NCBI GenBank assembly: GCA_022376465.1
Contig: JACDTU010000006.1
Coordinates: 1,786,439-1,850,438 of the forward strand
Direction: 5' to 3'
Source of the DNA: Cubamyces lactineus
Taxonomy: Eukaryota > Basidiomycota > Agaricomycetes > Polyporales > Polyporaceae
Length of the DNA stretch: 64,000 bases
Of the stretch, positions 24,428-58,691 are shown one piece after another. A program made the translations under genes and the position numbers. The notes below the pieces were generated by a model that saw nothing but the letters and a program-made list of their open reading frames with translations, made no database searches and was not told the origin of the DNA. The stretch's first letter is position 1. Every line of letters starts with the position of its first letter.

Positions 24428-26082
24428 TCATAGCTTCGAGAGCACGGCCTCGAACTTGTCCGTGCCCCCAAGGCTGCGCTCGCCGACCTCGCGCCACCAC
24501 CGCTCGGCCTCCGTGTCAGCGTCGTACGCAAATTGCGCCTCGTTCTTCTTCCGGTCCGCCCACTGGTTCGGGCTGCCTTCTAGTGCGTCCTCACCCCGTT
24601 CGCCCCGGAGCACCTTGAACTCGATCTCCATCGCCGCGCGCATCTGCGCATCCCGCGCTTCTTGTTCGGGTCCGTCGGGTAGGTGGAAGATCTTCTGGTT
24701 AAGACGCGACTGGCGTTGTGTCTCTGCTGTACGAGGTAGTCGGAGGTCTTCGTACGCCTGGAGGAGCCCACGGAGCTGTGCGGGGTGTTGCAGTCGAGAA
24801 AGCAAGTTCCCGAGAACGGCGGCGTCTTCGATGGCCATCGCAGCACCTTGTGCGCGGTAGGGCTGTCACGGCGTTTGAGTCAGCTGCGCAGAACAATACC
24901 GACGAAGATACAGGACGCACGAGCATGGGGTGGCACGCGTCGCCGAGGAGGATAACCTTATATGACGGGTGAATCCACTTGTTGAGTGGCTGACGGTCCA
25001 TGAGCCGCCACTTGAGCGTCGAATTGACGAAGCCCAGGAGCTTCCGGATGCTAGTGAAGAGAGCCGGACGTACGTTAGCACTCGTTCCAATACGGACGGA
25101 CGCCAGAGAGCACTGCGGACTGCGGAATGACGCACTTACCGAGGCTCGAAGTCGGCGAAATCAGCGCGCATCTTGTCCGCGCTGCCCTCGGCTGTCCACG
25201 ACTCGACAGACCCATCGTCGGGGTGTGCGAGGACGATGTTGAACTCTTTCTTGGCTCGCTACATGTCGTGGAGTAGACAAGTCAGTTCCAGCGTGGCTAG
25301 CACGAGCGCCGCTAGCTCGCGTAAATACGTACAATATTATACGCCATGATGTGGCGCCCGGGGCCCATCCATCCGGTCATTTCGGGGATGTCAACAAATC
25401 CCTTGAGCTCCGGGTCTTTGAGCAGCAGATGCGAGGGAATGATGGCCCGGTAGACGGCGTCCCCTGTGGGCTCCGCAGGGTTCGTATGCCCGAGGACGAC
25501 CCGCTGAATGGTGCTCTTGACACCGTCCGCCCCGACGATGAGATCACCATGAACGACCTCGCCGGTCGCCAATGTGATAGAGGGTGCGTCAGGGTCGACA
25601 CTGACTACGGTCGACTTGAGGCGGAGGTCCATGAACGGTACGGCGAGGTCAAAAAGGAGTTTGTGGAGGTCGGCGCGGTGAATGTGGTAGTAGGGGGAGC
25701 CGTAGCGGCGTTCCATGTCTGCCCAGCTGGTATATGCAACCCGCTCACCGGTATTGTATTTGCGGAGAACAATAGCGTCCGGGCGGACTGCGACAGACTC
25801 GAGAGCGTCGCCAACGCCCCACCTCCTGAGTAGCCTGGAGACATTTGGAGTAACTTGGATGCCAGCGCCGACCTCACCGATAGCAGAGGCGGACTCGAAA
25901 AGGGTAACCTTGTGTCCTGCTTGTCCAAGACAGTGAGCAGCGGCGAGACCGCCCATGCCACAGCCGACGACGAGGACATGGAGACGGTGTGCGGCCTTTC
26001 GACCGTCGTAGAGTCGAGTGTGGAGCGAGATACCCTCCGCAGAGGCGGCGCGGTGGGCAGCTACAGGTTCGTGGGTGGCCAT
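24428..26082 (-). CDS. FAD-dependent monooxygenase (salicylate-hydroxylase-like)
   Basis: Four exons, 26082-25333, 25258-25140, 25050-24921, 24862-24428, giving 477 aa. Class A flavoprotein hydroxylase motifs appear in order: GxGxxG as VVGCGMGGLAAAH at about residue 38, the DG motif in IVGADGVKST at about residue 180, and GDACHPMLPYRAQGAAMAIEDA binding FAD ribityl/pyrophosphate at about residue 330. Such enzymes insert oxygen into an aromatic or heteroaromatic acid using NAD(P)H and O2 in the cytosol. Fungal relatives act on salicylate, 3-hydroxybenzoate and hydroxynicotinate. No targeting signal is seen. The nearby permease and lam-like pair would fit an N-heterocycle substrate, but this is conjecture. 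Confidence 0.93.
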
Positions 26083-27909
26083 GGTCGGAGAAGCGACAGG
26101 AGAGGGGGGCTCGGAGGAGGCGAGATTAGAGGCTGGCAGGGTAGATATACGGACGCGCAGGGTAAACGATTAGACGGTGGTGTTATGGTATAGCCCATTA
26201 GAGCGTCAGCCAGCGCGAAAGGGCGTCATGCAGAAGAGAAGGCCGGACCTAGGACTGGTCGCATCAGCCACGAGTTCCCATGGACTGGCGGTCATTGACG
26301 CTGCGATTCCCTTTTGCGAGGGCGGGGAACACAGCTCAAACCCCGCAGATCTCCCTCGCTCAGCCCCCGTTCGGCCGGTAGCGTCTCCCCTCGCCGAGGG
26401 GCTCGTTCTCACGTGGACCTCGGAGCCAGCGGGTCGTGACTTGACTAGCGGGATGTGTCATGGAGACTGTGGCATGTTCCGCGACGCCGCCAAGAGAGCT
26501 TGATATAGCACATACACGAGGGAAATGGGCCAGTTGCGCTGAAAACAGCGAGCGGGAGGTCGTCGTCGTCGTCGAACGTCGTTCGAGTTGTGGTGGTGGA
26601 TGCGGGGAAAGGTGCGGGGTGCGGGGAAACCGGCGGCTGATTCATTTACCCTAACCACGGCTCGGGAGACTAATGAAATCGGCGATTCAAGCTCAGCTCA
26701 TCGGACTCCAATATAGAGTTCATCACTGCATGCAGACTCCTTGCTCCGTATCCGTATCTTCTCAGCATTCCCTCACATCGGCCCATTAGGTGGAATCGGA
26801 CACCCGAGTTGGATATTTTCAGCCGTTCACAGAAATACATCAGAATAGCACAAGTCTGAATTACACCTCCAAGGTAGTACTTCGACGCGGCCTAGCCTTT
26901 GCACTAAGCGGGGCACCATGTTCTCTCGGCTTTCGTAGGTTTCGGCATTCGCACCATACGGCACTCTAACCGCATGCTTGCATACAGTGCTTCAAGTCCT
27001 TCAGCACCTTACAGTTCCCGCCGTATAGGTTGTATCAGCTCAGACCAGAACGCGGGATTCAACGGTCTCGTGGATGTATCACTCGCTGTTTAGACTAACA
27101 GACATCCTCCTCTCCTGATCAAGGAAATGTCAGCGTTACCATAACATGCCACTTAATTCATTCGACTCGATCCCACAGCACTGGGCGCGGTGTGAACGGA
27201 CGCGGAACATGAATCTGCATACCTTGCATATTACCGTGAGAAGCTGGCCCGCTGTTCCGGTAAGCACGATTCCTCGCTCCCGCAGACACGACTCATTTCA
27301 GTACACGGCTGGTAAGGTAAGTAACGGAATCGCCTGTACGGTACAGTACAGATTTACCCTCAGGGACGCCGAATCCAGGGCCGGCGAAGTGTCAAATATG
27401 GCTGAGTGCGATGGACGCGTCGTTGGGCGCCTTCTTGCTAGTAATCAATCACCCAACGCGGGGTCGTGACCGTGTTGTGTGTAGCGCCCACCGAAGTGTG
27501 CGTCGGGCGTGCACCACGCGCCGGGTCGGCTGGGCAAGATGGCAGGACGGTCGTCGCGAGCAATCGTTACAGCATTCCTACGACTGTATGAGGGGCGGCA
27601 ACATGCGAGAGAACTGGAGGACAGGTCCCATATAGCCTCGCAAGAACCAATCCTCCGACCGGTGCGGGGTGACGAACACGAGTGGGCCTGAGCGTATTTT
27701 GGGTGGTGGTGGTGTACGGGGAAGCTGCGGCGAGAAGTGCGCATCGGACTGCCTAGGACGTACTATGTCGCACTCTTAGGTACGCTCTTCCTCGGAAAAT
27801 GTGTATATGCGCCATCATGTGCGGTCGTACCTACATAATCTCCTCCATTGCTTTGATATAACGGGTACTCGGCCCTCCACGATTCCTTGCCGGGCCTGCA
27901 TCCTGTCGC
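26083..27909. other. Intergenic, no supported gene
   Basis: About 1.8 kb between the monooxygenase start and the end of the LamB-like gene. Frames are short and unsupported on both strands. The part at 26500-27100 is comparatively AT-rich. Confidence 0.45.
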
Positions 27910-29505
27910 TTACTGTAATTGCGCGTTGTTCCTGTCCACCAACGCCTTCACCGTCTCAGCGATCTCGACCGCGCCCTGCAACGCCATCACACGTATTCAG
28001 CTTTCACGCTCTCACGCGCAGGACCAATGATTGGCGTCGAGATGCGAGAGAAGAAGGGAACGGGAGCACGTAGGAGCACGTACCGGAGTATCAGAGTGGC
28101 AGCAGATAGAGACTTCTGTGACGCCTTCGGTGAGAGGGAGGGAGCCCGTGGTGGTCGTGATGCGCTTCTCCTCGAGTAATCTGTTCACCCTATCGCGCAC
28201 GACGGACGCTGAGAGCGGCTCGTGCGTCCTATCCGCACAATGCAACAGTCAGCGATACTGCTTTGTGGCCAAAGAAGTACTTCGAGGCCAACTCGGCATT
28301 CGGCACAAGGTACGAGTACGGGGAATCTGGGACACGCACTTTGTAATCAACAGCTTCCCCTCGGGGCTATACTCCATGTCGACGAACCATTCTGGACGCA
28401 AAAGAGGTGGGAGCAGGGTCATCTATCCATATGCAGCCTCTGCAGGACAGATTCTTACCAGCGATGAACGGAACGCCGAGTTCCTTCGCGGCGGCTTGGT
28501 GATGTGTACCCGGGAGACCCATGAAGGGTACGTTGAACGTCTTTGCAACTCCCACCGCCGCCCGAGCGAGCGCAGGGTCGCGTGCGGTCATGCCGTAAAC
28601 TGCTCCGTGAGGCTTGATCTATATGGAGTTGCATTGAGATTGAACGTTGGCCCATATAGGAAGAAGGTAATGGAATCTACTGACGTGGTTGAGTGTGAGG
28701 CCGTGGGCGACCAAAAAGCCCATCAAGGCGCCGACTTGGTAAATGAAGCACGATGCGAGCTCTTCCTGTAGTATGCATTAGCCTCCTGTAACGAAGATGT
28801 AGTCCCTGCATATGCACGAGAGACTCACTGGTTCCATAGCCATCTCACGACGGCCAAAGCCTTGCCTGTCCGGCAGCGACGGGTGGGCGCCGACGTGGAC
28901 GTTGTTCGTCTTGGCGAGACGTACCGTCTCGTTCATAATGGAGAAGTCCCTATAAAGGTTGTCAGTACTACACGCATGCTATGCATATACACCCTAACTT
29001 ACGATGCGTGGAATCCACATGCGACGTTGGCGAGGTGAATCGTCTTCATGAGGGCCGCGTCGTCGCCCTTGCGAGTGCCGGCATTGATATCATGTCTCGG
29101 CGAGTCGATTCAAAGAGCTTGGAGACATACCATCTTATAGAGAGAGTAGCCCTAAAACGCAGGAATAATTGTATCAGCATCGTGGACCAGTCGCCTGTGC
29201 AACCATGAGTCCCTGAAGATGGTTGGCAGAAAGTCTTCCGACTCTTCGCATCAGCTGGGACGCTGAAGCGCCCATGAAGCGTTTGTGGCGTTGACGCGGG
29301 CTTCCACCTCTCCGTCCTCACCACCACCCTCTGGCACCTGCTCCTCTGCGCGGCTGGCGATATCACCGATACAACACTGCTTTATCAATCTGTGTACCAC
29401 TGGCCATGCAGGGACCTTCGAAGCGCAAGGAAAGGCGAAGGCTGATGAGTGTATGTTACCCACCTCACCCATATCGCAGTTCACTGTTGCACGGATACGC
29501 GTCAT
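27910..29505 (-). CDS. lamB: LamB/YcsF family protein (5-oxoprolinase subunit A-like)
   Basis: Nine exons, 29505-29464, 29151-29131, 29067-29003, 28949-28829, 28765-28685, 28618-28459, 28391-28340, 28228-28084, 27975-27910, giving 250 aa, the usual family length. Signatures: VNCDMGEGYSLYKMGDD at the N-terminus, [30 protein letters not shown] and [13 protein letters not shown], whose His/Asp residues form the family's putative active site. Bacterial PxpA works with PxpB/PxpC to open 5-oxoproline with ATP; Aspergillus lamB is needed for 2-pyrrolidinone use. It is divergent from the urea-carboxylase-like gene, with 481 bp between starts. The first intron is 312 nt, far longer than others here, and exon 2 is only 21 nt. 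Confidence 0.93.
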
Positions 29506-29986
29506 CTTGAGATTGAAGAGTGGGTGAGAGTACAAAACCGAGGCTAAGGTGATGGGGTGTAGGAGAGGTGATCCGGTGAGTAGACCAATGTCGAAAGGCG
29601 TGTCTGTGGCACGTCTCAGACTGACGGCCTTGTCCCGCAGGATCCCTTATATCATAGCCGCCTCGAGTGCTGGACGCGCATAAACCGTTAAAATAGATAG
29701 CACGAACTTAGGAGCATATCAGGCGGTGCGGTCATCCATCCCCTGCAATGGTCATGAGGCCTACGCCGACCGCGGCCCGCTCACAAGAACCTATCTGTGC
29801 GCGCGGCGTCGCTGTCAGACGTGCTACGCGGTGCCATCCCTTGGCATCGCAGCGCGCGCCGTTCCCTCGCTATCGCGAGCTATACATACCACGCCTATAT
29901 CGACGTCCATCGTGTGCCGACCTTCGGAATCACCGTCTTTGAACCTGACTCCTCAGGTTGACTGCTACGTGCCTCTGACCTCGACC

Positions 29987-32900
29987 ATGTCTACCACTGC
30001 AACGCCCGACTACTCGAGGCACAAGCTGCTCGTCGCGAACCGTGGCGAGATCGCCGTCCGCGTCTTGCGCACCGCGCGTCGTCTCCGGATTCGAACTGTA
30101 GCCGTCTACACCCGCTCGGACGCTACCGCACCTCACGTCGTCCTCGCCGACGAGGCTGTCGCTCTCCGGCCTGAAGACGACGATCCCGTGTCGAACGCGC
30201 GCGGATACCTAGACGCCGACGCGATAGTCACGATATGCAAGGAGCGTGGTGTGACGCTTGTTCACCCTGGGTATGGGTTCCTCTCGGAGAACGCGCACTT
30301 TGCGCAGATGGTCGTCGATGCGGGGATCGCGTGGCTTGGTCCGCGCCCAGACACGATTGAGGCGATGGGATTGAAGCATCGCGCGCGCGAGCTCGCCGTG
30401 GAGGTCGATGTGCCCCTCGTACCGGGGTCTAAGAGCCTCTTGCGGGACGTCGAGGACGCTGTGGACTTGGCGAACGGGATTGGCTACCCGGTCATGCTCA
30501 AGTCGACTGCGGGTGGCGGCGGTATGGGCCTAGTGGTTTGTCATTCCGCAGAGGAGCTGCGCGTCCGGTTCGCATCTACACAGGCTCGCGCGAAGGCATG
30601 TGATGCATTTGTACGTCCTCTGGCACGTTCGAGGGTTGACGTCGCCAACAGAGCTTGTTCCACAATGACGGTGTGTTCATTGAGAGGTACTACGCCGCCG
30701 CGCGTCATATAGAAGTGCAGGTATGGATATAAATTGCTTCGCTTATTCAGAACGGATCGGCTGACAGTTACGTTGTAGGTCTTTGGCGATGGTCAGGGGC
30801 ACGCTATCCACATGGGCGAGCGTGAGTGTAGCGTCCAGCGCAGGCACCAGAAGGTCATCGAAGAGGCGCCGAGTCCATTCATGCTCACTCGTCCAGGTAT
30901 GAACGCGGTGCTCATCGCGTCTCGCTAGACTTACACAATTTGATAGATGTGCAGCGAAAAATGTGGGACGCTGCCGTGCGCCTTGCTGAACATGTTCAGT
31001 ACGAGTCTGCAGGTAACTCAATATGAGCTTGCTACCATCTTGCTGCTGACCTCTCTACTACCCAATAGGCACTGTGGAGTTCCTGGTTGACGACGCAACA
31101 GGGCAGTTCTTCTTCCTCGAGATGAACACCCGACTCCAAGTAGAGCATCCCGTGACGGAGCAGATCAACCCCGGACTGGACATTGTCGAGCTCATGATAC
31201 TTCAAGGCATCACGAAGCACGATAAACTTCCCAACACGATCCTCGCCCACCCGGCGTTCGATCAACGCCTCTATGCTATCGCTTCACAGGAGAAAGGCAA
31301 GCACGCGATCGAGGTCCGCGTGTACTGTGAGAACCCCGCAGCGCAGTTCAAGCCTTGTCCCGGCGTCTTGCAGCGCGTAGAATTACCAAGACACGAGTGG
31401 CTGCGTGTGGAGTCCTGGGTAAGCGGCTCGGTTACCTCGGCGGAGATAGAGAGGTGGTTTTGTCTGACGCGTTGGGATAGGTTGAGACGGGAACGACGAT
31501 TACGCCGTATTTTGACCCGTTGGCGTGCAAGTTGATCGTGACGGGCGCGGACCGTCCTGAGGCGATCGCGCGGCTCGTACAAGTGCTCTCGGAGGCTGAG
31601 ATCTATGGGCCACCGAACAACATACAGTACCTTCGTGCCATATGCGAGTCGCAGGTATTTCAAGATGGCGCTGCGACGACAACCTTCCTCGATACGTTCG
31701 CATTCACGCCGAGGTCTGTGCCTTATTACACGCATGTATCCTGTCACTGATGATGAACATTGAAATAGGGCTTTCACAGTTCTCAGCGGTGGCCTAGAAA
31801 CTACGGTGCAGGACTACCCCGGACGCAAGATTGGTCTTGGAATCCCGCGAAGCGGACCCATGGACTCGATCGCCTTTCGCATGGCGAACGTCCTCGTCGG
31901 CAACGAACCCGGCACAGAAGCCCTCGAGCTCACATTAACAGGCTGTCGTCTCATTTTCCATGCCACTGCCGTGATCGCCGTCACAGGGGCCAGTGGTAAG
32001 CTGACCGTGGACGGACGCGAGGTGCCGTTCTGGTCGAGCGTTGTAGTCAGCCCTGGGAACAAGGTGGTGATTGGCAACGCCAAGGATGCGGGGATGCGAA
32101 TGTATCTCGCCGTCAAGGGAGGCTTTTCGGAGATCCCGAAGTATCTCGGGTCGAAGTCGACGTCGTTGGGACTGGGTGGATATCAAGGGCGCGCGCTCAC
32201 CGCTGGCGACCAGCTTGCTTTGGGCGACTGCGCTCCTGCCTCCTCCAACGTATCATCCCCGTCATCTCTCGTTCTCCCTGCGTCACTTACACCAACGTAC
32301 CCGAATGAATGGTCCATACACGTCCTCGCCGGGCCACACTGCGACCCCACGTTCGTCACTCCAGAAGGCATCAACGCATTCTTTGCGACCAAGTGGACCG
32401 TCAGCGCGGCGAGCAACCGGATGGGCGTACGGCTGGAGGGCCCCCAAATCGCTTGGGCGCGAACGACAGGTGGCGAGGGCGGCTCGCACCCGAGCAATAT
32501 CTTGGACAATGGGTATGCGTATGGAACGGTGAACGTGAACGGGGACACGCCTGTGATATTGGCGAACGAGGGCCCGGACATGGGCGGGTACGCGTGCGTG
32601 TGCACGGTAGCCAGCGCAGATATGTGAGTGCGAGATCTGCGCAAGGCGTCTCACTTCAAAGAGCCAGTGGGAGGCTAACGACCCCTCGGCCGCAGGTGGA
32701 AACTAGGACAGCTGAGAGCAGGCTCGACGGTTCAGTTCAAACAAGTGTCGCACGAACAGGCTGTTGATCTACTACACCACCAAGAGCGCCTCATCGACAG
32801 CTTGGTGGAATTCAGCAAGACTACCAAGGCTCCTGTTTTTCCGACTCTTGGGGAGTTTGATGTCGTCTCTATGGACCCACGACTGTATGTAAGGCATGCA

Positions 32901-34760
32901 GATACGACCAGCGGTCGTCCCGGTGTAGTCTTCCGCCAGGTGCGCATCGATTCCTGGCATTTTTTGATGTGTCGGCTGATACGTGATTGCGCATTCTTGA
33001 TCGACAGGCAGGCGACTCGGCGATTCTGGTCGAATTCGGCGAGATGACGCTCGACTTTGGGATACGAGCGCGGATCCATGCGTTTGAGGCGGAAGTCAGG
33101 AGGAGGGCGATTTCGGGTGTGTGGTCTCTCGCGCCGTGCATCAGGTCAACGATGGTTAGTTTGCATCAGCGTTCCTTGCTATCGCATTTGCTGAACTCCT
33201 TTCCTTCTTCTTTTCGCGCGCATGTACAGGTTCACTTCGATCCCCTCATTACGAGTCAGTCAGCCCTGCTCACTGCGCTAGTGGATGCAGAGGCATCGCT
33301 CCCCGCCAACGTCGAATCACTCACCTTCCCGGGGCGTAAGATCACGTTCCCCGTCGTTCTCGACGACAGGTGGAACCGCGAGGCTCTGGAGAAGTATATG
33401 CGCAGCATTCGTGACGAGGCCGCTTACCTGCCTAGCAACATTGAGTACCTGGCGAGGACGAACGGGCTGCAGAGTAAAGCGGAGGCCTTGAAGCTGCTCG
33501 TGAAGACTGACTGGGTGAGTCCGGCATCAAGTGTTGGGATTGTCTGCTCATGATGCGTTTGCAGCTCGTACTGGGCGTTGGCTTCTATCTCGCGTGTCCC
33601 TTCCTGGTTCCTGTAAGCCATCCAACGTTCCAGGGAGTGCCTATAGACTAAAGCGAGTGCGTAGATTGACCCTCGCTGCCGCCTGATAGGCCAGAAGATG
33701 AACCCTTCGCGAACGTACACGCCTCGAGTGAGTCGGGCGATGTCTTTCCCGTGGCTGTCCACTTTGCTCACTGTCTCACCTCTCATTTCAGGGTGCCATT
33801 GGTATCGCTGGAGTTGTTGCAGCCATATATCCCATCGAGTCTCCCGGAGGCTATCAGCTATTTGGCCGTACATTGCCTCCTTGGCAGACTTGGGGCAAGG
33901 GTCAGAACTTCGGCCCGGACAGCCCTTGGCTGCTCCGGCCATTCGATCAGGTAGGTTTGCAATATGAACACAAGGTCTGTGTTTCTGACGATCTGTGCCT
34001 CCATAGATTGCATGGGAAGCCGTCAGCGAAGACGAGTATCTACAGGTAAGCAGGATTGTCCAGCACTCTTACACCGAAAATCAAGATGGTGCTGTCGTAG
34101 TTCGAGAACCGCTTTGATGCAGGACAATACGCGTTCAAGGTAGGGTCCTGCGCCTTCTAGGGCCGGTACTGTCATTCACCCTGAGGTCAGATCGAGGATA
34201 CGGAGTTCTCGATGGCGGAATATGCTACGTTTGTGAACAGCATCGCCGATGAGATCAAGGAGTTCAAAGCGAGGCAAGCAGCAGGCGTGGCAGCCGAAGA
34301 TGCACGGTGCGTCAGATGCGATGATACGATGCACGCAAGCGTACCTGATTGAAGATGACTATAGCGAGCGGGAACTATTCGCGAAGTGGGATCGTCGACG
34401 ACGCGAGGAGATCGAAGCACGCCAGTCGCAGAGCGCTGATTCAGACGGCAAGTCAACCTGTGGTGATCGCCATTGCTTGGCGTATGGCTTATTGTATAAT
34501 GAACGTCAACAGGTACCCCAGAGGAAAGTGGCGAATTTGTCCCATCTTCACTGACCGCGCACGTATGGAAGATCAAGTGTGCAGTCGGCGACGTCGTCGA
34601 AACGGCGGAGGACGTGCTCATTATCCTCGAGGCGATGAAGACCGAGGTCAATGTTGAAGCTGGGGAAGAATTCGTTGGACGTAAAGTCAAAGGCTTTGGT
34701 AGAGGGGTAAAAGAGGGAGGTTCCGTCCAAGCTGGGGATGCACTCGTGTATTTCGACTGA
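29987..34760 (+). CDS. lamA: Biotin-dependent urea-carboxylase-like protein (LamA-type)
   Basis: Eighteen exons: 29987-30595, 30652-30720, 30779-30896, 30947-31012, 31069-31418, 31481-31713, 31769-32623, 32696-32939, 33008-33154, 33230-33514, 33565-33612, 33665-33727, 33792-33950, 34007-34045, 34101-34139, 34191-34306, 34365-34447, 34513-34760. They sum to 1256 aa. Domains in order: biotin carboxylase ([59 protein letters not shown]), AHS2/KipA ([20 protein letters not shown]), AHS1/KipI ([38 protein letters not shown]), a linker, and a biotinyl domain with EAMKTEV. No allophanate hydrolase domain is present, unlike Dur1,2. Introns 1 and 17 use GC donors. Probably ATP-dependent carboxylation of a urea-, amide- or lactam-like substrate. 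Confidence 0.93.
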
Positions 34761-35903
34761 TGGGCTCACTGCCTGAGTATTGATCTGTGTAACTACAAGT
34801 TCCAGAGGTTGTCGCTCTCAGAATCCACACAGAATCATGTGCACGGTTGCGTATGTTCGAGTGCTTGCTCCTTGACCAGGATGTACGCCGCACAGGTGAT
34901 TGCCGCGTATACATACGGGCGTCTCACCTCCTTGCAACGTTGCCTTCCGAACGTCACTCCCTGACTCGGAACCATCACCATGTGTCCCCGCCAGCTCTAG
35001 GTTGCGCCTGCAGCTTGATCCCTTCTTCTATGGCGAACTCCAACCTCAATATCTGCGAGAGCCGACAGATAGCTCAGCTATGGCACCGTATGTTTCCTCA
35101 GGCTTAGGCCGCCGAGCGCTCATAGAGGTCGTCTCGTTTGGTCGAGGCCGACGGCTGATCAGTGTGTTTTGATAGGTAGACATGATACACGCATGTTCAG
35201 GCTTGCTCATTCCAAGATGGCTATCCGATGTGACTTACACGATGGCGGAACATCGTTGTTTGGTTGTCACCCTCACAGTTGTCGGGCTTCGTCCTGAGCC
35301 TCTCACTATTCTCAAACTAAATCTCATACGCAAGTGTCATCTTAATTCGGATCTCCGAGCCAATATGCCACCTCGACCAACCGCCAAAATGAGCCCCCGC
35401 CTGCAGTGGCGGCTGGAACATTCGTTTCGCCCGCCGGGCCCCGCGGATGAGAATCGAAAGTTCCCTTTCACGTAGTTTAGCGAAAAGAAGCAGGCACTAC
35501 GTGGGTGCGCATGCCTCCAGCGGCTGATCTTGTGTATATCGCAGAGCCCTGGCCCCCGTATGCAACTGATATCCGAGGTCCATCGCTCAGCATCGGGCAT
35601 ACGTTCACATACTCTGTCGCATTCTGAATTTCTGACTATGGAGTCCAACAGGTCTCTCTCCCACACTCGCCTTCCGAATACCGTAGAAGTCGAGGCTATC
35701 TGTCATGGTTGCGAGCTGACCCTCAAACCATCCAAGTGACGAACGGGCCCAGCTGGTTGCTCGTTACGTTTGATCGCCTTCCAGAGCGAAAACACGCGGC
35801 AAGGTTTTTGGTGTATCTCATATAATATACGAGGGATGCAGGACGGTCTGCACGTCGCATCGTCCTCATTCCTACATCTGCGTCGACAAATCATTCTGAC
35901 ACA
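34761..35903. other. Intergenic, no supported gene
   Basis: About 1.1 kb between the LamA-like stop and the next SDR start. No gene, tRNA or repeat recognised; TATAATATA at about 35821-35830 could serve the downstream SDR. Confidence 0.4.
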
Positions 35904-37327
35904 ATGCCTGCTATTCCACCTCGCGCGACTGTGCTTGTCAGCGGTGCAAACGGCTACATTGGTGTCTGGGTCGTACTCGCTCTCCTGTCTCGCGGATACT
36001 CTGTGCGAGGCACCGTTCGATCCCCGAGCAAGGTCGGGGTCTTGTCTGACATCGTCTCTCGCAAGCTTCCCGATGCGGAGGCTCGCTTTGTAGGCTACGT
36101 CGTTCCGGACATCACATCTGTACGTGTTAGACGTTACTTTGCGTTCTGTTCGTCTACTAAAACCTCTTGGGTCAGCCCGGCGCATTCCGCGAAGCTGTCA
36201 AGGACGTCGATGCCGTGATACACCTTGCTTCGCCGACGTCCACCAGCATCGTCGACCCGAAAGATGCAATAGAGCCTGCTGTCCGCGGCACTACCAACGT
36301 CCTGACGAGTGTTCTAGGGTAAGTCAGTGCCGTTTTTTCGTATCTCTGGCAGTGTGTGGCTGAGTACTCACGGCCCTTTTTTTAGAGAGCCTAGGATCAA
36401 GCGAGTCGTGGTAGCTTCGTCAATCTCTGCCATCGCCAGTGCCTCGGTCGCGCCAACACGGGTATACACCGAAGACGATTGGAACGATCAGGCGATCCGG
36501 ATAGTGGAGGAGCAGGGAATTGACGCGCCGGGCCTCATCGAGTATGAAGCCAGCAAAACCCTCGCGGAACGTGGTAAGTTCCTGCATTGCTGTGACCGGG
36601 CCTCTGCCTCATACCTCTGCATATATGCAGCTGCTTGGGCGTTCCTTGAGCAGCACAAGCCTGAAGCAAAATTCGACTTGGTTGTAGTGAACCCCTCCTT
36701 GGTGTACGGTGTAAGTCCGCGCAATTCAGCTCTCCTCTAGGCGTGCATTGCCTAAGCGGAGTTGAGGCGGTAGCCTGTCGCTGACGATACGCTCGCGTCG
36801 CCCGACGATCTCCCCATAACTCCTAGTATGGTGTGGAACAACCTGTTTGCACGCCCTGCGCCGCGCGAACGAGAACCGAAAGTGTTCAACTCTGTCGATG
36901 TGCGCGATGTCAAGGATATCATGGTCAGCGCACTTGAAACCGAGGCGGCCGGCGGACAGCGGATCATCGCCAACTCTCGTACGTTCCTCTACATGTTCTA
37001 GGTCTGATACTCATTGCGGTAACTGGTCGGTTGATCTGGCAGAGATATCCACCTGGGACGAATGGGGTAAGCATCTTTGCACCACAAACTGATCCTATCG
37101 CCTGTGATTCACGACTCCCCGCAGTGCTTGTCAGCCAGGAACTCAGTCTACTCCGTCGGCTGGAGAGGGTCGACGCAGAGGTCACGAAGAAGCGTCCAGA
37201 GCACCTATTCTTCTCCAACGAGAAGGCGAAACGGCTTTTCGGGATGGAGATGCGCACGATCCGCGATACGATGAAGGACACGGTCGCTGATTTCAAGTCG
37301 CGCGGGTGGCTCAGGCATCTCGAGTAG
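35904..37327 (+). CDS. NAD-dependent epimerase/reductase (SDR, dihydroflavonol-reductase-like), intact
   Basis: Seven exons, 35904-36119, 36176-36318, 36386-36573, 36631-36710, 36774-36978, 37043-37066, 37125-37327, giving 352 aa. The TGxxGxxG loop has Ser for Thr (VLVSGANGYIGVWVV). Catalytic VVVASSISAI and YEASK are present, as is VFNSVDVRDVKDIMVSAL and the C-terminal FFSNEKAKRLFGMEMRT. Exon lengths 188, 80 and 24 match the copy at 22287 exactly, showing common descent; protein identity is moderate by eye. All introns are GT-AG. Cytosolic oxidoreductase of unknown substrate. Confidence 0.93.
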
Positions 37328-41664: not shown

Positions 41665-43315
41665 CTACCCATCTATACGTCCGCTCACAGCCGCTACTGT
41701 GCCTGCATTCAACGCTGCAACACGACCGTCCGCATCCTTCACAGGCCCAAAACGTAGTGCCTCGAGGTTGTGGCCCTCAGTTCCAATGACACCCTTGCCC
41801 ATGATGAGCTCATCCGGGACGCGCTCGAGCCGGACGAGCTCCCGACGGACGTACTCGACGACTGTCGCCATCGTCTCCGGGTACGCAACGTACTTGTCCG
41901 CCTCCGCGGGCGGGAAGTCATGCACACCCGAGCCGTCGTCCCGCCGCTCCTCCGCCTCCAACGCTCCACGGTTCTTCTCGAGCCGGGAGAGCTTCTCGAC
42001 CGACCCGCCCGCGATGTTCACCGCGCGTCGGAAGTGCGCACGCGGGTCTGCAGAGGCACCGTCGGGATCTGGGTATGCAATCCCCCGCGCACCGCGTGCG
42101 CCGAGGAGGTTGCGCCAGATGGCGGCGGCGAGCTCGGCGTCGGAGCGGACGAGGCCGAGGTCGAAGGACATGCCCATCCCTGCCCATTGCTCTTTGAAGA
42201 TCTTCATCTGGCGGGTGACGAGGGACTCCGGGGTGCGTCCCTTGGCGTTCTTCTTGCTCATCGCATTCGCGATGCGGTAGAAGTCGGACCGGGAGGTATA
42301 CGGGGCGAGGTTCTGGGGTGGGGCGAGCGAACCGGGAGAGACGGGCTGAAGGACGGCGCGGACGCGGTCCTCGATGTCGATGAAGAAGTGGTCAATGAGG
42401 CCTTGGACGTAATTTTGGCCGTGTGGGGCAGGGAGTGCGCGGAGGCGGACGGTAAGGAGCCATACGTGGAGGTTGGTTACTGTGAACCAGGATTGGAACG
42501 TCGGTGGTAGATGGCATTCTAGAGGAATATAAGCATGAGCGACGTGATAAGCGCGATCCGGACAGCGTTACGCCGTACATGGCAGAAGAGGCTGAGAAGC
42601 CCGGCGCTGGTCAAATTCGACGGCAAACGAGGGAGCAGGAAGAGATAGCATGGACAACTCCGAGGGGAGAGTATGACCCGCCGTCGCTACACTCTTCCTC
42701 GTACAGTGGCGGTAAAGTGCGCGGGCGTAGCAAACGCGGAGATTGTCCGGCTCTGACGAGTGTAAAGCTCCGCGGATAGCGCTCGAGGAAAGTGCTGACG
42801 TTACGAAACATATGCCGCACTCCTTGAGCTGCAGTTGCCGCCAAAGCGTGCAATAGAGGACGCGATGCGACGCGCATACAACGCGACTTTGACGAACACG
42901 CAAGCCGTGCAAGGCCCATCAATCACGACAGAACAAGAAACGCGTACTCACCCTTTTTCCAGAACGCAGCTTCGTCGTCTGCACGGGGGACGCAGAGCTC
43001 GGAGTACATGTTAAACGCCCTCCGGCCAGCGTACTGTTTTGTGCTGCCGTAGCCGAGGAGGCCAGCGAGCGCGATGAACGCGCTTTTTGCGACGGGGGAT
43101 TGGCGAATGGTCTTCGTGAGCCATGTTTGCTGTGGGCTCGCCGGCCGCTTGCTGGGAGGCTGAGAGGAAGAGGACGAAGAGGATGGTGTGGAGGACGACG
43201 GGGGATTAGAGGGTGTCGAGGAGGAGGATGAGGAGGCCTGGGATGTCAGAGCACGGACATGGCGAGCACAGGCAGAGCGCTGAGCAGATGCGAGGGAGAG
43301 AGAGCGGCCGAGCAT
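41665..43315 (-). CDS. CBP3: CBP3-like ubiquinol-cytochrome c reductase (complex III) assembly chaperone
   Basis: Two exons, 43315-42952 and 42518-41665, give 405 aa. The ATG at 43315 opens a Ser/Arg/Ala-rich mitochondrial presequence (MLGRSLSLASAQRSACARHV) followed by a Ser/Pro-rich stretch. The ubiquinol-cyt c chaperone domain follows: YSELCVPRADDEAAFWKK, spliced to ECHLPPTFQSWFTVTNLHVW, then HGQNYVQGLIDHFFIDIEDR. Cbp3 with Cbp6 binds the mitoribosome exit and newly made cytochrome b in yeast. The C-terminal half is longer than in yeast and charged. The single intron (42519-42951, 433 nt) is unusually long for this window; alignment shows no missing exon. The gene is divergent from HSP60. 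Confidence 0.93.
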
Positions 43316-43610: not shown

Positions 43611-44371
43611 ATGCACCACCTCTCCTCCGCGTCTTCCTCTGCCGTCCGCCGCCAGGCCGTCAAGGCCGCAAAGGCTGCAAAGCCCGTCCTCGCGCGCGGC
43701 GCGCACAAGGAGATCAAGTTCTCCAACGAGGGTCGCGCCGCCATCCTCAAGGGTGTTGACACCCTCGCCAATGCCGTTTCCGTCACCCTCGGTCCCAAGG
43801 GTCAGTTCGCTCTCGTCGTCGTCCGAGCGCGAGCACGTTTTTGCTGACACGCGTCTGTGCAGGTCGCAACGTCATCATCGAGCAGCCCTTTGGTGGCCCC
43901 AAGATTACCAAGGGTCAGTCTCTCTTCCCACACTCGCCTTCTGGCTCGCGTCTGACGCCCCCACGCAGATGGTGTAACAGTCGCAAAGTCGGTCACTCTC
44001 AAGGACAAGTTTGAGAACCTCGGCGCTCGGTAAGCCATGACAGCGTTACGCCCGTAGCGTATCCCGTACTCACCCGTCGTGTAGTCTCGTCCAGGATGTC
44101 GCGTCCAAGACGAACGAGCTTGCCGGTGACGGTACCACCACCGCTACCGTCCTCGCTCGTGCAATCTATTCGGAAGGTGTCAAGAACGTTGCTGCTGGCT
44201 GCAACCCTATGGACCTCCGCCGCGGCTCCCAGGCTGCCGTCGACCGCGTCGTCGAGTTCCTCTCCAAGCACGCAAAGACCATTACTACCACCGCCGAGAT
44301 CGCCCAGGTCGCGACCATCTCCGCGAACGGTGACGCCCACGTCGGCAACCTCATCGCTCAGGCTATGGAGA

Positions 44372-44408
<37 letters not shown>

Positions 44409-45585
44409 CCGCACCATCGAAGACGAGATTGAGATCACGGAGGGCATGCGCTTCGACCGTGGCTTCATCTCGCCCTACTTTGTCACCGACGTGAAGAACC
44501 AGCGGGTCGAGTTCGAGAAGCCCCTCATCCTCCTCTCCGAGAAGAAGATTTCCGCGCTCCAGGACATCCTTCCCACGCTCGAAATCGCTGCGCAGTCCCG
44601 CCGCCCGCTTGTGATCATCGCCGAGGACATTGACGGCGAGGCCCTCGCGGCGTGCATTGTCAACAAGCTCCGCGGTCAGCTCCAGGTCTGCGCAGTCAAG
44701 GCGCCCGGCTTCGGTGACAACCGCAAGTCGATCCTCGGTGACCTCGCCATACTCACCGGCGGTACCGTGTTCACGGACGAGCTCGACATCAAGCTCGAGC
44801 AGGCGACCGCGGACATGCTCGGTTCGACGGGTGCGATCACGATCACGAAGGAGGACACGATCATTCTGAACGGCGCGGGCTCAAAGGACGCGATCCAGGC
44901 GCGCTGCGAGCAGATCCGGGCGTTGATTGAGGACCGGACGACGTCCGACTACGACCGGACGAAGCTCCAGGAGCGCCTCGCGAAGCTCTCGGGAGGAGTT
45001 GCGGTCATCAAGGTCGGCGGGTCGTCGGAGGTCGAGGTCGGTGAGAAGAAGGACCGGTACGACGACGCGCTGAACGCGACGCGGGCTGCCGTCGAGGAGG
45101 GTATCCTCCCCGGTGGTGGTGTTGCGCTGCTGAAGGCGTCGCTCGCGCTGACGTCGTCGAGCCAGGCGGGCCAGAGCACGTCGTCGCAGCCGACCGCGGC
45201 GGACGCGAAGCCGATCCCGACGGCGAACTTTGACCAGGACCTTGGCGTGTCGATCATCAAGCGGGCGCTGACGCAGCCTTCGCGGACGATTCTGAAGAAC
45301 GCGGGCGAGGAGGCGTCTGTGATCGTGGGCACGCTGTTGAGCACGTACGGTGCGGCGGACAAGTTCTCGTGGGGCTACGACGCCAGCAAGGGCGAGTACG
45401 TGGACATGATCCAGGCGGGTATCGTGGACCCGCTGAAGGTCGTGCGGACGGCGCTGATTGACGCGGCGGGTGTTGCGTCGCTGTTGACGACGAGCGAGGC
45501 GTGCGTGGTGGAGGTGGAGGAGAAGCAGCCTCCTGCGCCCGGTGGCATGGGTGGTATGGGCGGCATGGGTGGCATGGGCTTCTAA
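43611..45585 (+). CDS. HSP60: Mitochondrial chaperonin HSP60
   Basis: Four exons, 43611-43800, 43863-43913, 43969-44029, 44085-45585, give 600 aa. An N-terminal presequence ([21 protein letters not shown], ending near ARGAHKEI) is followed by [51 protein letters not shown] and the ATP-binding [13 protein letters not shown]. The chaperonin signature appears as [16 protein letters not shown], and the C-terminus is the GGMGG repeat tail. It folds imported proteins in the matrix as a double ring with Hsp10. Introns sit only in the first quarter. Codon use is strongly G/C-ending, as for a highly expressed gene. Confidence 0.98.
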
Positions 45586-54907: not shown

Positions 54908-57016
54908 GTTGGTCAAGTCGCACTTGCTCGAGGCAGCTGGGATTGCTAGAGTCCAGAGGGTCAGAGTGGAGTCCGTTGTGTTCGTAACTTGGCGGGAGGA
55001 CCCTCGTTGTATCCGAGTCAACCAAGGGGCAGGTCGTACCGGTACCGAAGGCAGCGATGCCGTACACCTCGACAGTACTTCAAAGATCGCAGCATCACTT
55101 TGCAATTCCGTTATCCATACACAACCGGAGCGTGGACCTGTGCATGCGCCATTTATCAGCACGGGTGCCGAGGGTAGCAATAACGTAAGTAGTTGGAGGA
55201 GGAAAGAGGCGCGCCCACAATTGGCCGTGAACGCATGTCGGCAGCTCATGCGGACTAGGAACGTATGAGCACTGGGAATCTAATGTCGAACCGAGATGCA
55301 GCATAGTGACAGGGTCTCCCGAGGGCAGACGTAGGTGCTCGTCGTTCTCACCTCGGCCGGAACCCTCAGACGCTTGCCAAGACATTCGGTACGTGGGATA
55401 CCATGATGATTGTGGTGCTCTAGTCGAGTTCGCAGCAGTACTCATTGACCTACGAGCTGTGCTGTTGCTCGTGGCGTTGAACACGTCTTCGAGTGTCGCT
55501 TCAAGCTGTGTGGCGACGGCGACGCTATCACTACGGTTCACGAACGTGATTGCACCTGTGGCGTTCGACAACGAGTCTGAGGATGGTCGAGTTATCGAAT
55601 GGCGGTGAGCAGGAGATTTCGAAACGGCTGCATGCATCTGGGCGGGGATGCAGAACGTGTACGCGCATCAGAGACGTTGCACGTACCCTCGCGCTTTGAC
55701 TGCGACTTGATTTGGGTGCGTCCTGGTAACCTCTCCGATGGATATATGACTCGTTCCGATACGATGGAACCGTACGAGGTATCATCTTCGTTCACAAGTA
55801 ATTCTCAGGTGGGAGGGCGTTGTCCTACGGCGCGTACTACAACGTCAGGAAGCGGTTCGTGTTGTCTCCACTATTGTGAGGTTCGCCCTTTGAACCGGTA
55901 GTTGGGGTAGTGCTGACTGCCGTCTTTGTGTGCTACTAGAGTAGTATGGGTACCACGGGGGCATGTTCCTGACGGCGAAGATGATGTTGGTGTCAATGAA
56001 AGTTGGCTGTGCATGATAGGGGAGGAGGTGCTGCCGACGGCGCACCGGATAGAGATGTCACCTCAAGGGAGGACGGTGCCGGAGGTGGCAAGCAGCGCAG
56101 GCCCGGTGAGGCACAAACCTCTAACGCATCTGGCAACGGCGGCCCAGTGTTTCGTAGACTCGTTCACACGTGAACGTCCGTAGACACTGCAAGGGCGGTA
56201 TCCTGAGAGAAGAGGTTCGGGATGCCGAGGGCGATGGCCGAGGGTCAATCGCGGGACAGAGAAGGCGGGTAGTTGAGTGTGGGGAAGTGTTCGTATCCAC
56301 GCCCACCGCTAACGGAACAGTTGTCTAGTGAGAATGCGACGGTCGGTGAGAGTGCACGGTTGGCGTACTGTGGCTGATAAGCCTTGTCGAGAGCGAAGAC
56401 GGTGCGACGACGACTCGGTCTTTTCGGCTCAAGGCAACATATTTTCTTCGGCTCAGCTGCTGAACTTGCGATTAGCTTGTGACTCGGTCCGCAGAGATGA
56501 CGTCCAGGGCGATGGAGATGCTCTTGGTTTCATCGCCGAAGAAGATCACGGGGGAGGTTGAGCGCGGGTGCGAGCCTCGTCAGGCCGACCGGCGGGGGCG
56601 TCCACGCAGATCGCAGCAGTCGAAAGCGTCGGATGCTTTCGTTCGGCACGCCCTTAGACTTGGCCTCAGTTTATGACCCTGTAACAAGTGCGAATGTGTG
56701 AATATTTCCAACATATCTATTACGCACACAGAGGGCCTACTTCCGCGTCGATAGCTGGTGCAGCGCACATGTTCTGTATTGGGTAGACTGCCGCTAAGGG
56801 TGCCCGCGCTCGCTGCTGTTAGGGATTGTGAATTGTCGTGGATGAGACGCGTGGCGAGGGATCGCCGTTGGGACGCCGTGCTCGACAGGCGCGGTGAGGG
56901 TTTGTTCCTTGCCACCATCTCTCTCTCCACCTCTTTCCTCTCTCGTTTTTTCTCCCGCGCTCTGCTGGGAATCTCCTCCGAAGCTCGCCCGTAGCATCAT
57001 CTGAGAGCACAGGAGG
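54908..57016. other. Gene-poor stretch, possible eroded coding sequence
   Basis: Several moderately long frames (minus 55095-55637, 55531-55785 and 55845-56045) have protein-like segments but overlap in conflicting frames and could not be spliced into a recognisable protein. I call no gene. Nothing else is visible up to the TATA box at 57017. Confidence 0.35.
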
Positions 57017-57024
57017 TATAAAAA
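57017..57024 (+). promoter_or_regulatory. TATA box of the GT69 gene
   Basis: TATAAAAA ends 11 nt before the ATG at 57036. Either the leader is almost absent or true initiation uses a later ATG or an upstream promoter. Confidence 0.4.
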
Positions 57025-57035
57025 CAGAGAGAAAG

Positions 57036-58691
57036 ATGGCTGGCCTACGCTACGACCGACGCGATGCCCGCCGTATCGGCCTGCAGCTGCTGTCTCACTC
57101 TCTCCTCTTTCTTCGTCTCCTGGGCCGCCTTCTCGTTTGCGTACTGCGTCTTCCTCTTCTCTTCCAGGTCGTCAGTTTCGCTCTGATATTCCGCCACATT
57201 TACAACAGGCTCGCCCTCTACCTCGACGGCGTATGGCAACCAGCCTACCCCCACGGCTGGACTCTCTGGATCGCCTTCCTCTGGTCCATCCCCGTCTGGG
57301 CCGCCATCCAGATCGCATGGACCCTCCTTACGCTCTGCGTCAGGCGTAGGCTGTCGAGGAACACCAACAACAAGAGCTGGAGGGTCGACGGGTACGTCGT
57401 TCTCGAGGGCCGTGCCTCTGAGGAGGACGGCCTCCCTCTCCCGTCCACGCCATCCCACTCTTCCTTCCCCACATCCCCGCTCCACGCCCTCGTCGCTGGC
57501 CTCCCCAGCCTCTCGACGGTCTGGGTCCTTGCGCAGCTCGCGCTCTACACCTACCTCCTCGTCGTCGGCTATCACGAGTACACCCACTACGAGCACCCCA
57601 CCGACATCCGCCTCCGTCCTGCCCTCCGTGCCGCCCTTGCAGATCCTCGTCCTAATCCGGCAGGCTACGCACCTCGGAAGGAGAAGATCTTCATCGCCGC
57701 CGCCTTCCACCAAAACCAGGACGTGATCCCGTACTGGACGCGTTCCATGCGCGACGCCATCATCTACCTCGGCACCGACAACGTCTTCGTCTCCATCGTC
57801 GAGAACTACTCCTCCGACAGCTCCCCGGACCTCCTCCGTGCCTTTGCCCAGGAGCTCGACACCCTCGGCGTCAGGAACCGCGTCCTCGTCTCCGACGAGA
57901 CCGTCAAGAAGCCCGAACACGTCGAATGGAACCCGCGCATCGAGTTCCTCGCCGCCATCCGCAACCAGGCGCTCGAGCCCCTCGTCCAGTCCGGCGGCTA
58001 CGACCGCGTCCTCTTCTCCAATGACATCTTCATCGAGCCCGAGTCCATCCTCGAACTCCTCGCCACCCACAACGGCGAGTACGACTTTGCGTGTGGACTC
58101 GACTTTGGCCATTTCGGCGCGTACGACATGTGGGTCCTCCGCGACCGCATCGGACGTCTCACCGCCGGCTTCTGGCCCTACTTCTTCGACGCGGCGAGCT
58201 ATGAGGCGATCAAGCGCGAGGAGCCCGTCCCCGTCTTTTCGTGCTGGAACGGCATCGTCGCGTTCAACGCGGACCCCGTTCTCCCCGTCGCTCTCCGCTC
58301 GAACAAGACGCTCTCCCAGTCTCCCCTTCCCAATCCCCCTCCCGCGAACCACCCCTGGACGCCGGTGCTAGCCGAGTCGCCCGCGCTGACGCCCCCGCTC
58401 AAGTTCCGCGCCTCGGCAGAGGGCGAGTGCTACTCGTCCGAGTCGTTCCTCCTCCCGTACGACTTCCGCCGCGTGATGGCGCTCGACAGGATCTACGCGA
58501 ACCCGCTCGTCGTGAACGGGTACGTGTGGAAGTACTACGCGTGGCACAAGTGGGTCCTCCGCGAGCGGTACGTCAAGTGGTTCATCGAGCAGGTCTGGGA
58601 CGGCGCGTGGATGCAGTATGCGCGTATGATCGTGGGCGACGCGAAGAGCGTCTGGGTGTGGGATGGTGTCGAGTGCCATCCGTGGTGGTAG
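57036..58691 (+). CDS. GT69 alpha-1,3-mannosyltransferase (CAP59/CMT1 family)
   Basis: A single open frame of 551 aa. The N-terminal third holds three to four hydrophobic segments (LLFLRLLGRLLVCVLRLPLLF, WIAFLWSIPVWAAIQIAW, VLAQLALYTYLLVVGY), as for a Golgi type II or multi-pass anchor. The catalytic domain begins near EKIFIAAAFHQNQDVIPYWT, with VFVSIVENYSSDSSPDLL, VLFSNDIFIEPESILELL (the D-x-D-like part of the family) and YDFACGLDFGHFGAYDMWVLRD. Cryptococcal relatives make capsule or protein-linked glycans. Total lack of introns contrasts with nearly every neighbour and suggests retro-origin or intron loss. Downstream 58692-59110 is empty. Confidence 0.93.
   Translation: MAGLRYDRRDARRIGLQLLSHSLLFLRLLGRLLVCVLRLPLLFQVVSFALIFRHIYNRLALYLDGVWQPAYPHGWTLWIAFLWSIPVWAAIQIAWTLLTLCVRRRLSRNTNNKSWRVDGYVVLEGRASEEDGLPLPSTPSHSSFPTSPLHALVAGLPSLSTVWVLAQLALYTYLLVVGYHEYTHYEHPTDIRLRPALRAALADPRPNPAGYAPRKEKIFIAAAFHQNQDVIPYWTRSMRDAIIYLGTDNVFVSIVENYSSDSSPDLLRAFAQELDTLGVRNRVLVSDETVKKPEHVEWNPRIEFLAAIRNQALEPLVQSGGYDRVLFSNDIFIEPESILELLATHNGEYDFACGLDFGHFGAYDMWVLRDRIGRLTAGFWPYFFDAASYEAIKREEPVPVFSCWNGIVAFNADPVLPVALRSNKTLSQSPLPNPPPANHPWTPVLAESPALTPPLKFRASAEGECYSSESFLLPYDFRRVMALDRIYANPLVVNGYVWKYYAWHKWVLRERYVKWFIEQVWDGAWMQYARMIVGDAKSVWVWDGVECHPWW

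Follow-up and report, generated by a model that had tools for sequence, protein, structure and literature searches.

In Aspergillus nidulans, the genes lamA and lamB serve the use of lactams under AmdR, and lamB is described as a 2-pyrrolidinone utilization gene related to ycsF (PMC3412718, PMC8016842). Of the PxpABC proteins, PxpA is described as probably a metal-dependent lactamase, with PxpBC using the ATP (PMC8453981), and the lactam is assumed to be phosphorylated rather than carboxylated (PMC13274462). Here, we describe a locus of the basidiomycete Cubamyces lactineus, located in a stretch of 64,000 nucleotides (contig JACDTU010000006.1, positions 1,786,439 to 1,850,438 of the forward strand; hereafter the window), in which a LamB/YcsF gene stands back to back with a gene for a large biotin-dependent protein annotated as "urea carboxylase." From sequence and by analogy with described enzymes, we consider it probable that the two genes together serve to open lactams in two steps at the expense of ATP, and that the locus is what corresponds in a basidiomycete to the Aspergillus lam locus. 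What the two loci share is the pairing of a LamB gene with a stand-alone carboxylase; in A. nidulans, lamA would be the stand-alone "urea carboxylase" of that species, and the lam pair is presumably divergent there as well.

The fused protein is already known as a kind, namely the stand-alone fungal "urea carboxylase" (PMC3073912), which Strope et al. (2011) found in Basidiomycota and Pezizomycotina with a history separate from that of urea amidolyase. By the same account, A. nidulans has one such protein of 1241 amino acids and no amidase, and the three basidiomycetes of its Table 2 have no amidase either; its main text makes no mention of lam, oxoprolin, or pyrrolid (PMC3073912).

A first-pass annotation of the window had described the locus as a divergent pair of 9 and 18 exons separated by 481 bp, encoding homologs of PxpA, PxpB (AHS1), and PxpC (AHS2) with a biotin carboxylase and a biotin carrier fused on. 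Gene models rebuilt from the DNA bear out the arrangement, and Pfam the domain assignments. The features, in window coordinates, are as follows (CT, carboxyltransferase).

27910..29505, minus strand: LamB/YcsF (PxpA-like) gene, 9 exons, 250 amino acids (splice model, Pfam PF03746, relatives)
29505-29464, 29151-29131, 29067-29003, 28949-28829, 28765-28685, minus strand: exons 1-5 of the LamB gene
28618-28459, 28391-28340, 28228-28084, 27975-27910, minus strand: exons 6-9 of the LamB gene
29152..29463, minus strand: long first intron of the LamB gene, 312 nt (splice model)
29506..29986, no strand: shared upstream region, start codon to start codon, 481 bp
29987..34760, plus strand: LamA-like gene, annotated "urea carboxylase," 18 exons, 1261 amino acids (Pfam, splice model, deposited protein)
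29987..31713, plus strand: biotin carboxylase part, exons 1-6, the last of which ends in linker (Pfam PF00289, PF02786, PF02785)
31769..32939, plus strand: CT_A_B (KipA/AHS2/PxpC-like) carboxyltransferase half, exons 7-8 (Pfam PF02626)
32532-32534, plus strand: Asn equivalent to yeast Asn1330, within the CT_A_B part (residue alignment)
33008..33950, plus strand: CT_C_D (KipI/AHS1/PxpB-like) carboxyltransferase half, exons 9-13 (Pfam PF02682)
33574..33603, plus strand: 10-residue active-site loop, without the Asp1584 equivalent (residue alignments)
33695..33697, plus strand: conserved Lys equivalent to yeast Lys1605 (residue alignments)
34513..34760, plus strand: biotinyl carrier domain with EAMKT (Pfam PF00364)
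34638-34640, plus strand: codon of the biotin-accepting Lys, within the carrier domain

The large protein carries, in order, the Pfam domains Biotin_carb_N, CPSase_L_D2, Biotin_carb_C, CT_A_B (KipA/AHS2), CT_C_D (KipI/AHS1), and Biotin_lipoyl, the last with the biotinyl motif EAMKT, and the LamB protein covers essentially the full LamB_YcsF domain (PF03746, E=1.3e-81, profile positions 3-237 of 239).

The carboxyltransferase site offers the means of judging the annotated name. Guanidine carboxylases are defined by Asp at the positions numbered 1584 and 1330 in Kluyveromyces lactis (PMC11410670, a 2024 Nature paper), Asp is said to mark guanidine carboxylases and Asn urea carboxylases (PMC12186494, a review), and Lys1605 is the proposed general base of carboxyl transfer (PMC5770610). 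The numbering was checked on the K. lactis chain, and Asp1584 is present in that urea enzyme itself. For comparison, we took the best 120 listed relatives of the large protein and the best 120 listed relatives of LamB. The equivalent of Asp1584 is absent in 120/120 fungal relatives of the large protein, whose loop, identical to that of C. lactineus or a close variant of it, is one residue shorter than the GLGDVYLGAP of urea and guanidine carboxylases; the scoring of each relative read the column beside the gap (Phe in 120/120), and the deletion itself was seen in separate alignments. Position 1330 is Asn in all 120, the biotin-accepting Lys is likewise kept in 120/120, and the Lys1605 equivalent is kept in 119, the remaining one being gapped. 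With its biotin carboxylase domain, biotin Lys, and carboxyltransferase Lys, the large protein thus has the make-up of a biotin-dependent carboxylase; of the two residues expected in a urea carboxylase it has Asn1330 and lacks Asp1584, and of the two Asp residues that define a guanidine carboxylase it has neither.

Bacterial fused relatives differ at precisely this loop. Read from genome contigs, the 80 nearest all carry Asp1584 (GLGD) together with Asp1330, and a sample of one phylum has Asp1584 in 30/30, 19 with Asp1330 and 11 with Asn1330. In two other phyla, 21 of 40 loci match the GLGD motif (20 Asp1330, 1 Asn1330) and the other 19 are without a motif match; the genomes of three of these loci (L149, L155, L177) are also represented among the 80 nearest. 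All bacterial sequences of the urea type (Asn1330) that were read carry Asp1584 (11/11, 1/1, and Pantoea). The residue rule also fits two annotated plasmids, that of Pantoea (Asn1330) with atzF and urtABCDE and that of Rhizobium (Asp1330) with atzF and UAAP1/2. CT_C_D-type subunits without the Asp occur at six LamB/PxpA loci, those of Methylobacterium, Thioclava, Aureimonas, L. fermentum, Bradyrhizobium, and E. coli. The AHS1 proteins of Methylobacterium and Thioclava (287 and 291 amino acids) have the loops VGFVAGLPFL and VGFVSGLPFL, which align without gaps to the fungal loop, and the PxpB loop of Bradyrhizobium has Ser at the position where the other Asp-less subunits carry Phe. A search of 791 genomes of three phyla (398, 199, and 194), a sample without Actinobacteria or Bacillota, for a fused protein of bacteria carrying the fungal form of the loop found none; every fused locus read there carries the Asp, and the best identity to the 76-residue query, among the matches listed and top-scoring, was 58%.

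The annotated name has its own grounds. The relatives are so annotated, Asn at the position of yeast Asn1330 is the urea-type letter, the protein is ~41% identical over its whole length to the "urea carboxylases" of Pantoea and Rhizobium, and it scores just over the cut-off of TIGR02712, the NCBI urea carboxylase equivalog model (1323.8 versus 1303.85). The same model gives 1960.7 for Pantoea and 1790.6 for Rhizobium, however, and of three more fungal relatives (P0116, 1320.3; P0045, 1219.0; P0087, 1223.8) two fall below the cut-off. With Asp1584 missing, we hold it highly unlikely that the protein is a true urea carboxylase with LamB as an unrelated neighbor or a handler of allophanate, and the name is probably wrong, on residue and tree evidence, for this mushroom protein family.

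Phylogenetic placement points the same way. Two trees were built, one of the biotin carboxylase with E. coli AccC as the root and one of the CT halves with Pxp proteins as the root; in both, the fungal proteins form the sister group of all sampled urea and guanidine carboxylases, the yeast enzyme included, with support of 98-100. Applied to a concatenated alignment (19 sequences, 1023 columns), the approximately unbiased (AU) test rejects the nesting of the fungal protein in either class (fungal with urea type, p=0.00037; fungal with guanidine type, 1e-6), and it equally rejects a clade of the fungal protein with the bacterial lam-operon genes (3e-5), which a direct fusion of those genes would call for. 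By its placement, then, the large protein is no direct fusion of bacterial LamB-operon genes but stands as sister to the urea and guanidine carboxylases. In the tree of LamB itself (18 sequences), a branch with support of 100 sets the fungal proteins together with those of Methylobacterium, Thioclava, Shinella, and Aureimonas apart from the E. coli PxpA side, the position of Aureimonas having a support of 50.

The remainder of the genome bears on what the pair could do. CT_A_B and CT_C_D domains are matched at this locus only in the 36.3-Mb C. lactineus assembly. The locus had been described as incomplete for urea breakdown for want of an allophanate hydrolase domain, and this holds: neither protein has an amidase (allophanate hydrolase) domain in a Pfam scan, and nothing in the genome exceeds the cut-off of the allophanate hydrolase model TIGR02713, the best match reaching 90.9 against 511.05 bits. 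As the profile search reads the genome exon by exon and a much-split gene would score low, this negative is strong but not absolute. A urease was found. With a urease and no allophanate hydrolase over the cut-off, urea has another route, and the second half of the urea carboxylase route was not found, both of which speak further against a urea enzyme at this locus. A partial LamB copy (C30:109065-109799, on a 129-kb contig) consists of stretches 75-93% identical to the gene described here; it was dropped as a candidate second working copy since it covers exons 6-9 only, and its contig holds no CT_A_B match.

The same machinery could also be imagined with 5-oxo-L-proline as its natural substrate, opened to glutamate, which would make the pair a fungal biotin-type 5-oxoprolinase. 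LamB scores over the NCBI PxpA subfamily model (245.9 versus 226), with no PxpA equivalog model passed, and opening of the 5-oxoproline ring is unfavorable without ATP (Keq about 0.035, PMC13274462), which would justify an ATP-driven route. The genome, however, keeps a separate ATP-dependent 5-oxoprolinase of the eukaryotic type (Hydantoinase_B, 7 matched stretches, C39:1421521-1423677), and 5-oxoproline is the less likely substrate for that reason; the fungal LamB is also split from the E. coli PxpA group by the fully supported branch described above, and the published link of lam genes in fungi is with the use of lactams (PMC3412718, PMC8016842). We regard this alternative as unlikely.

Bacteria offer a parallel to the putative lactam-opening pair in unfused form. 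In a plasmid collection, the LamB proteins closest to the fungal one, at 51% identity, are those of Methylobacterium aquaticum and Thioclava, which are encoded in pxpA-BCCP-BC-AHS1-AHS2 operons (BCCP, biotin carboxyl carrier protein; BC, biotin carboxylase). In Aureimonas, the carboxylase genes lie several kilobases from LamB, and the gene next after LamB encodes a class-III aminotransferase, which fits an amino acid product. At the Shinella locus, ~7 kb separate the CT halves from LamB, and the stretch examined yielded no biotin carboxylase. PDB entry 9yx5 (chains V and W) lists allophanate hydrolase subunits 1 and 2 with the alpha3 subunit of a biotin-dependent acyl-CoA carboxylase, and may represent a Pxp-type pair in complex with a biotin carboxylase.

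On the M. aquaticum plasmid (L114 9995-19636), the operon adjoins hydantoinase/oxoprolinase A and B genes, and two different ATP-dependent amide-opening systems are thus adjacent. Such systems may therefore have a wider substrate range, and the large protein might carboxylate some other small amide or amidine (hydantoin, guanidine, or another lactam), with LamB opening or hydrolyzing the product. We give this very little credence: guanidine is disfavored by the lack of Asp at position 1330, and the reading frames scanned in the window point to no given substrate.

Linkage of the two genes extends well beyond C. lactineus. Among the listed large-protein entries, 53 of 120 are apparently on the same contig as a listed LamB entry, six of these contigs being shorter than 100 kb; identity of contig was judged from equal size, a proxy, and long contigs may carry both genes far apart. 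Locus tags are consecutive in four pairs (Coniferiporia, Marasmius crinis-equi, Paramarasmius, and M. oreades), and in Trichoderma both genes lie within one segment (PMC8675399). That LamB is linked in many relatives is also at odds with its being a chance neighbor of a urea carboxylase. A third homolog search, started from a Dacrymycete, again gave only basidiomycetes among the named rows, and no ascomycete or algal sequences were reached. Pleurotus ostreatus is among the species with the large protein. One LamB protein, that of Phlebiopsis gigantea (P0173), also has a carbohydrate kinase domain (PF00294), perhaps through a fusion of gene models.

For the lactam-opening system, we propose a mechanism modeled on urea amidolyase, in which N-carboxylation primes urea for allophanate hydrolase. 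In a first step, the biotin carboxylase domain would attach a carboxyl group, from bicarbonate and at the cost of ATP, to the biotin of the C-terminal carrier, which would then swing to the CT_A_B/CT_C_D site, where the carboxyl group would pass to the ring nitrogen of a small lactam. In a second step, LamB/YcsF would hydrolyze the activated ring amide, in the role that allophanate hydrolase has for urea, and the resulting N-carboxy-amino acid would lose CO2 to give an omega-amino acid, gamma-aminobutyrate if the substrate is 2-pyrrolidinone. We infer here the substrate, its N-carboxylation, the hydrolysis by LamB, and the joint working of the two proteins. Carboxylation is favored over the phosphorylation assumed for PxpABC because the large protein contains a biotin carboxylase and a carrier. 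By analogy, 2-pyrrolidinone is the most likely substrate, given the connection of lam genes in fungi with the use of lactams and the presence of a separate enzyme for 5-oxoproline. In the literature searched, beyond whose reach the primary lam and PxpABC papers lie, no lactam N-carboxylation mechanism for the fungal pair was found. The lactam reading is supported, at the level of sequence, by the occurrence of CT domains at a single locus, the lack of an allophanate hydrolase over the cut-off, linkage, the loss of the Asp, the bacterial LamB operons, and tree placement. Of the carboxylative lactam or oxoproline opening that the first-pass annotation had envisaged, the lactam half thus gains support from residues, trees, and linkage, and the oxoproline half has become less likely in view of the separate 5-oxoprolinase.

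Besides the urea-type Asn and a urea carboxylase score that is after all, if barely, above the cut-off, several observations weigh against the lactam reading. No LamB gene lies in the flanks (up to 8 kb, shorter at contig ends) of the 80 bacterial fused relatives nearest to the large protein, as searched with a profile that does detect bacterial LamB elsewhere, and a fused bacterial LamA was not found. The trees rest on 38, 19, or 18 sequences with few outgroups. The LamB proteins of L. fermentum, Bradyrhizobium, and Paracoccus, all from biotin carboxylase operons, group with E. coli PxpA, and a division of LamB into "biotin" and "non-biotin" types was dropped for this reason. In the analysis of Strope et al., the fungal proteins cluster with "urea carboxylases" of green algae (PMC3073912); the latter are outside the alignment, and any that proved to be Asp-less yet active on urea would sink the residue argument. 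Lastly, conservation of the two genes as neighbors across the Agaricomycetes, on which the first-pass annotation had let its idea depend, is partial: linkage in the 53 listed cases is accompanied by locus tags far apart, and hence an unlinked pair, in Ganoderma sinense and G. adspersum, and the listed contigs differ in several other species, among them Dentipellis, Mycena pura, Suillus paluster, and Phellopilus, perhaps but not necessarily because the assemblies are fragmented or separate.

Should the lactam reading be right, many mushroom genomes carry a misnamed protein, now annotated as urea carboxylase or urea amidolyase, and these fungi have a route to lactam nitrogen. As a more tentative extension, which we hold with somewhat under even confidence, the mushroom stand-alone "urea carboxylases" could be a third substrate class of the family, LamB-dependent lactam N-carboxylases. 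Since their branch lies outside that of the urea and guanidine enzymes and they have the Asp-less loop common to LamB-partnered subunits, they may preserve the ancestral state, and the urea and guanidine carboxylases may have arisen by insertion of the Asp into the loop and replacement of LamB by allophanate hydrolase as the partner. On this view, carboxylation would be a general way of priming amides for hydrolysis, and the substrate would be set by a single loop residue together with the partner hydrolase. The question bears on the evolution of urea and guanidine carboxylases, and the prediction at the level of residues, in which the presence or absence of the loop Asp goes with allophanate hydrolase or LamB as partner, makes the chemistry of lam and of biotin-associated pxpA testable.

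Both gene models are free of in-frame stops. The LamB gene runs from an ATG at 29505 to a stop at 27910 with GT-AG borders at 8/8 introns, of which the 7 after the first measure 53-111 nt; the large gene runs from an ATG at 29987 to a stop at 34760. The deposited C. lactineus protein (P0001, "urea carboxylase [Cubamyces lactineus]") has the same length of 1261 amino acids and differs from the rebuilt model at two junctions, with five fewer residues at exon 1/2 and a linker before the biotinyl domain that is 5 residues longer. Judging from P0001, the first intron of the large gene would be a GC-AG intron (AAG|GCATGT) at 30596-30651 and the last intron would be 34463-34512. The deposited form was followed for these two introns and the rebuilt splice model for all other exon ends. 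The short form at exon 1/2 is also present in the six relatives readable there, and the nearest relative, P0002, has the longer form.

The 481-bp gap contains three GATA-factor-like HGATAR sites, at 29695 (+), 29796 (-), and 29875 (-), a number reached by 8.7% of sampled 481-bp stretches of the window and so not significant; nitrogen-regulation motifs were dropped accordingly. A functional cluster was also dropped, as 16 distinct reading frames scanned in the window yielded nothing tied to lactams. The flanking frames match an FAD-dependent monooxygenase (25315-26169, -) and, weakly, an NAD-dependent epimerase/reductase (35826-36215, +); farther out lie frames that match the families of ubiquinol-cytochrome c chaperone (41668-42567, -), TCP-1/cpn60 chaperonin (44041-45582, +), and CAP59-type mannosyltransferase (56898-58688, +).

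Among described systems, K. lactis urea amidolyase (3va7, 5i8i) shares with the large protein the biotin carboxylase, the CT halves, the carrier, and the equivalents of Asn1330 and Lys1605, whereas the C. lactineus protein is without the amidase domain and the Asp1584 equivalent and stands on a separate tree branch. The bacterial guanidine and urea carboxylases have the same fused architecture and, in two examples, ~41% identity, but all those read carry Asp1584, and the two annotated examples have allophanate hydrolase as a neighbor, accompanied by UAAP1/2 in one case and by urea transporter genes in the other. The alphaproteobacterial pxpA-BCCP-BC-AHS1-AHS2 operons combine the same five functions, with a LamB that is 51% identical and an AHS1 with the Asp-less loop; they differ in consisting of five separate genes, and their CT halves are more distant from the fungal protein than are those of urea and guanidine carboxylases. 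E. coli pxpBCA (PxpABC) likewise has a LamB/YcsF protein and two CT-like subunits with the Asp-less loop, but its operon is without biotin parts, its LamB falls in another tree branch, and its A, B, and C subunits are separate, whereas in C. lactineus the B- and C-like parts are fused to the biotin carboxylase and the carrier. The stand-alone urea carboxylase of Strope et al. agrees with the large protein in domains and length and is treated there as a urea enzyme. The lam locus of A. nidulans, likened here by description rather than by sequence, has the LamB/YcsF gene in common with ours. The C. lactineus pair is of a known kind, the fungal lam pair, to which we add residue and tree evidence against the name of its larger member.

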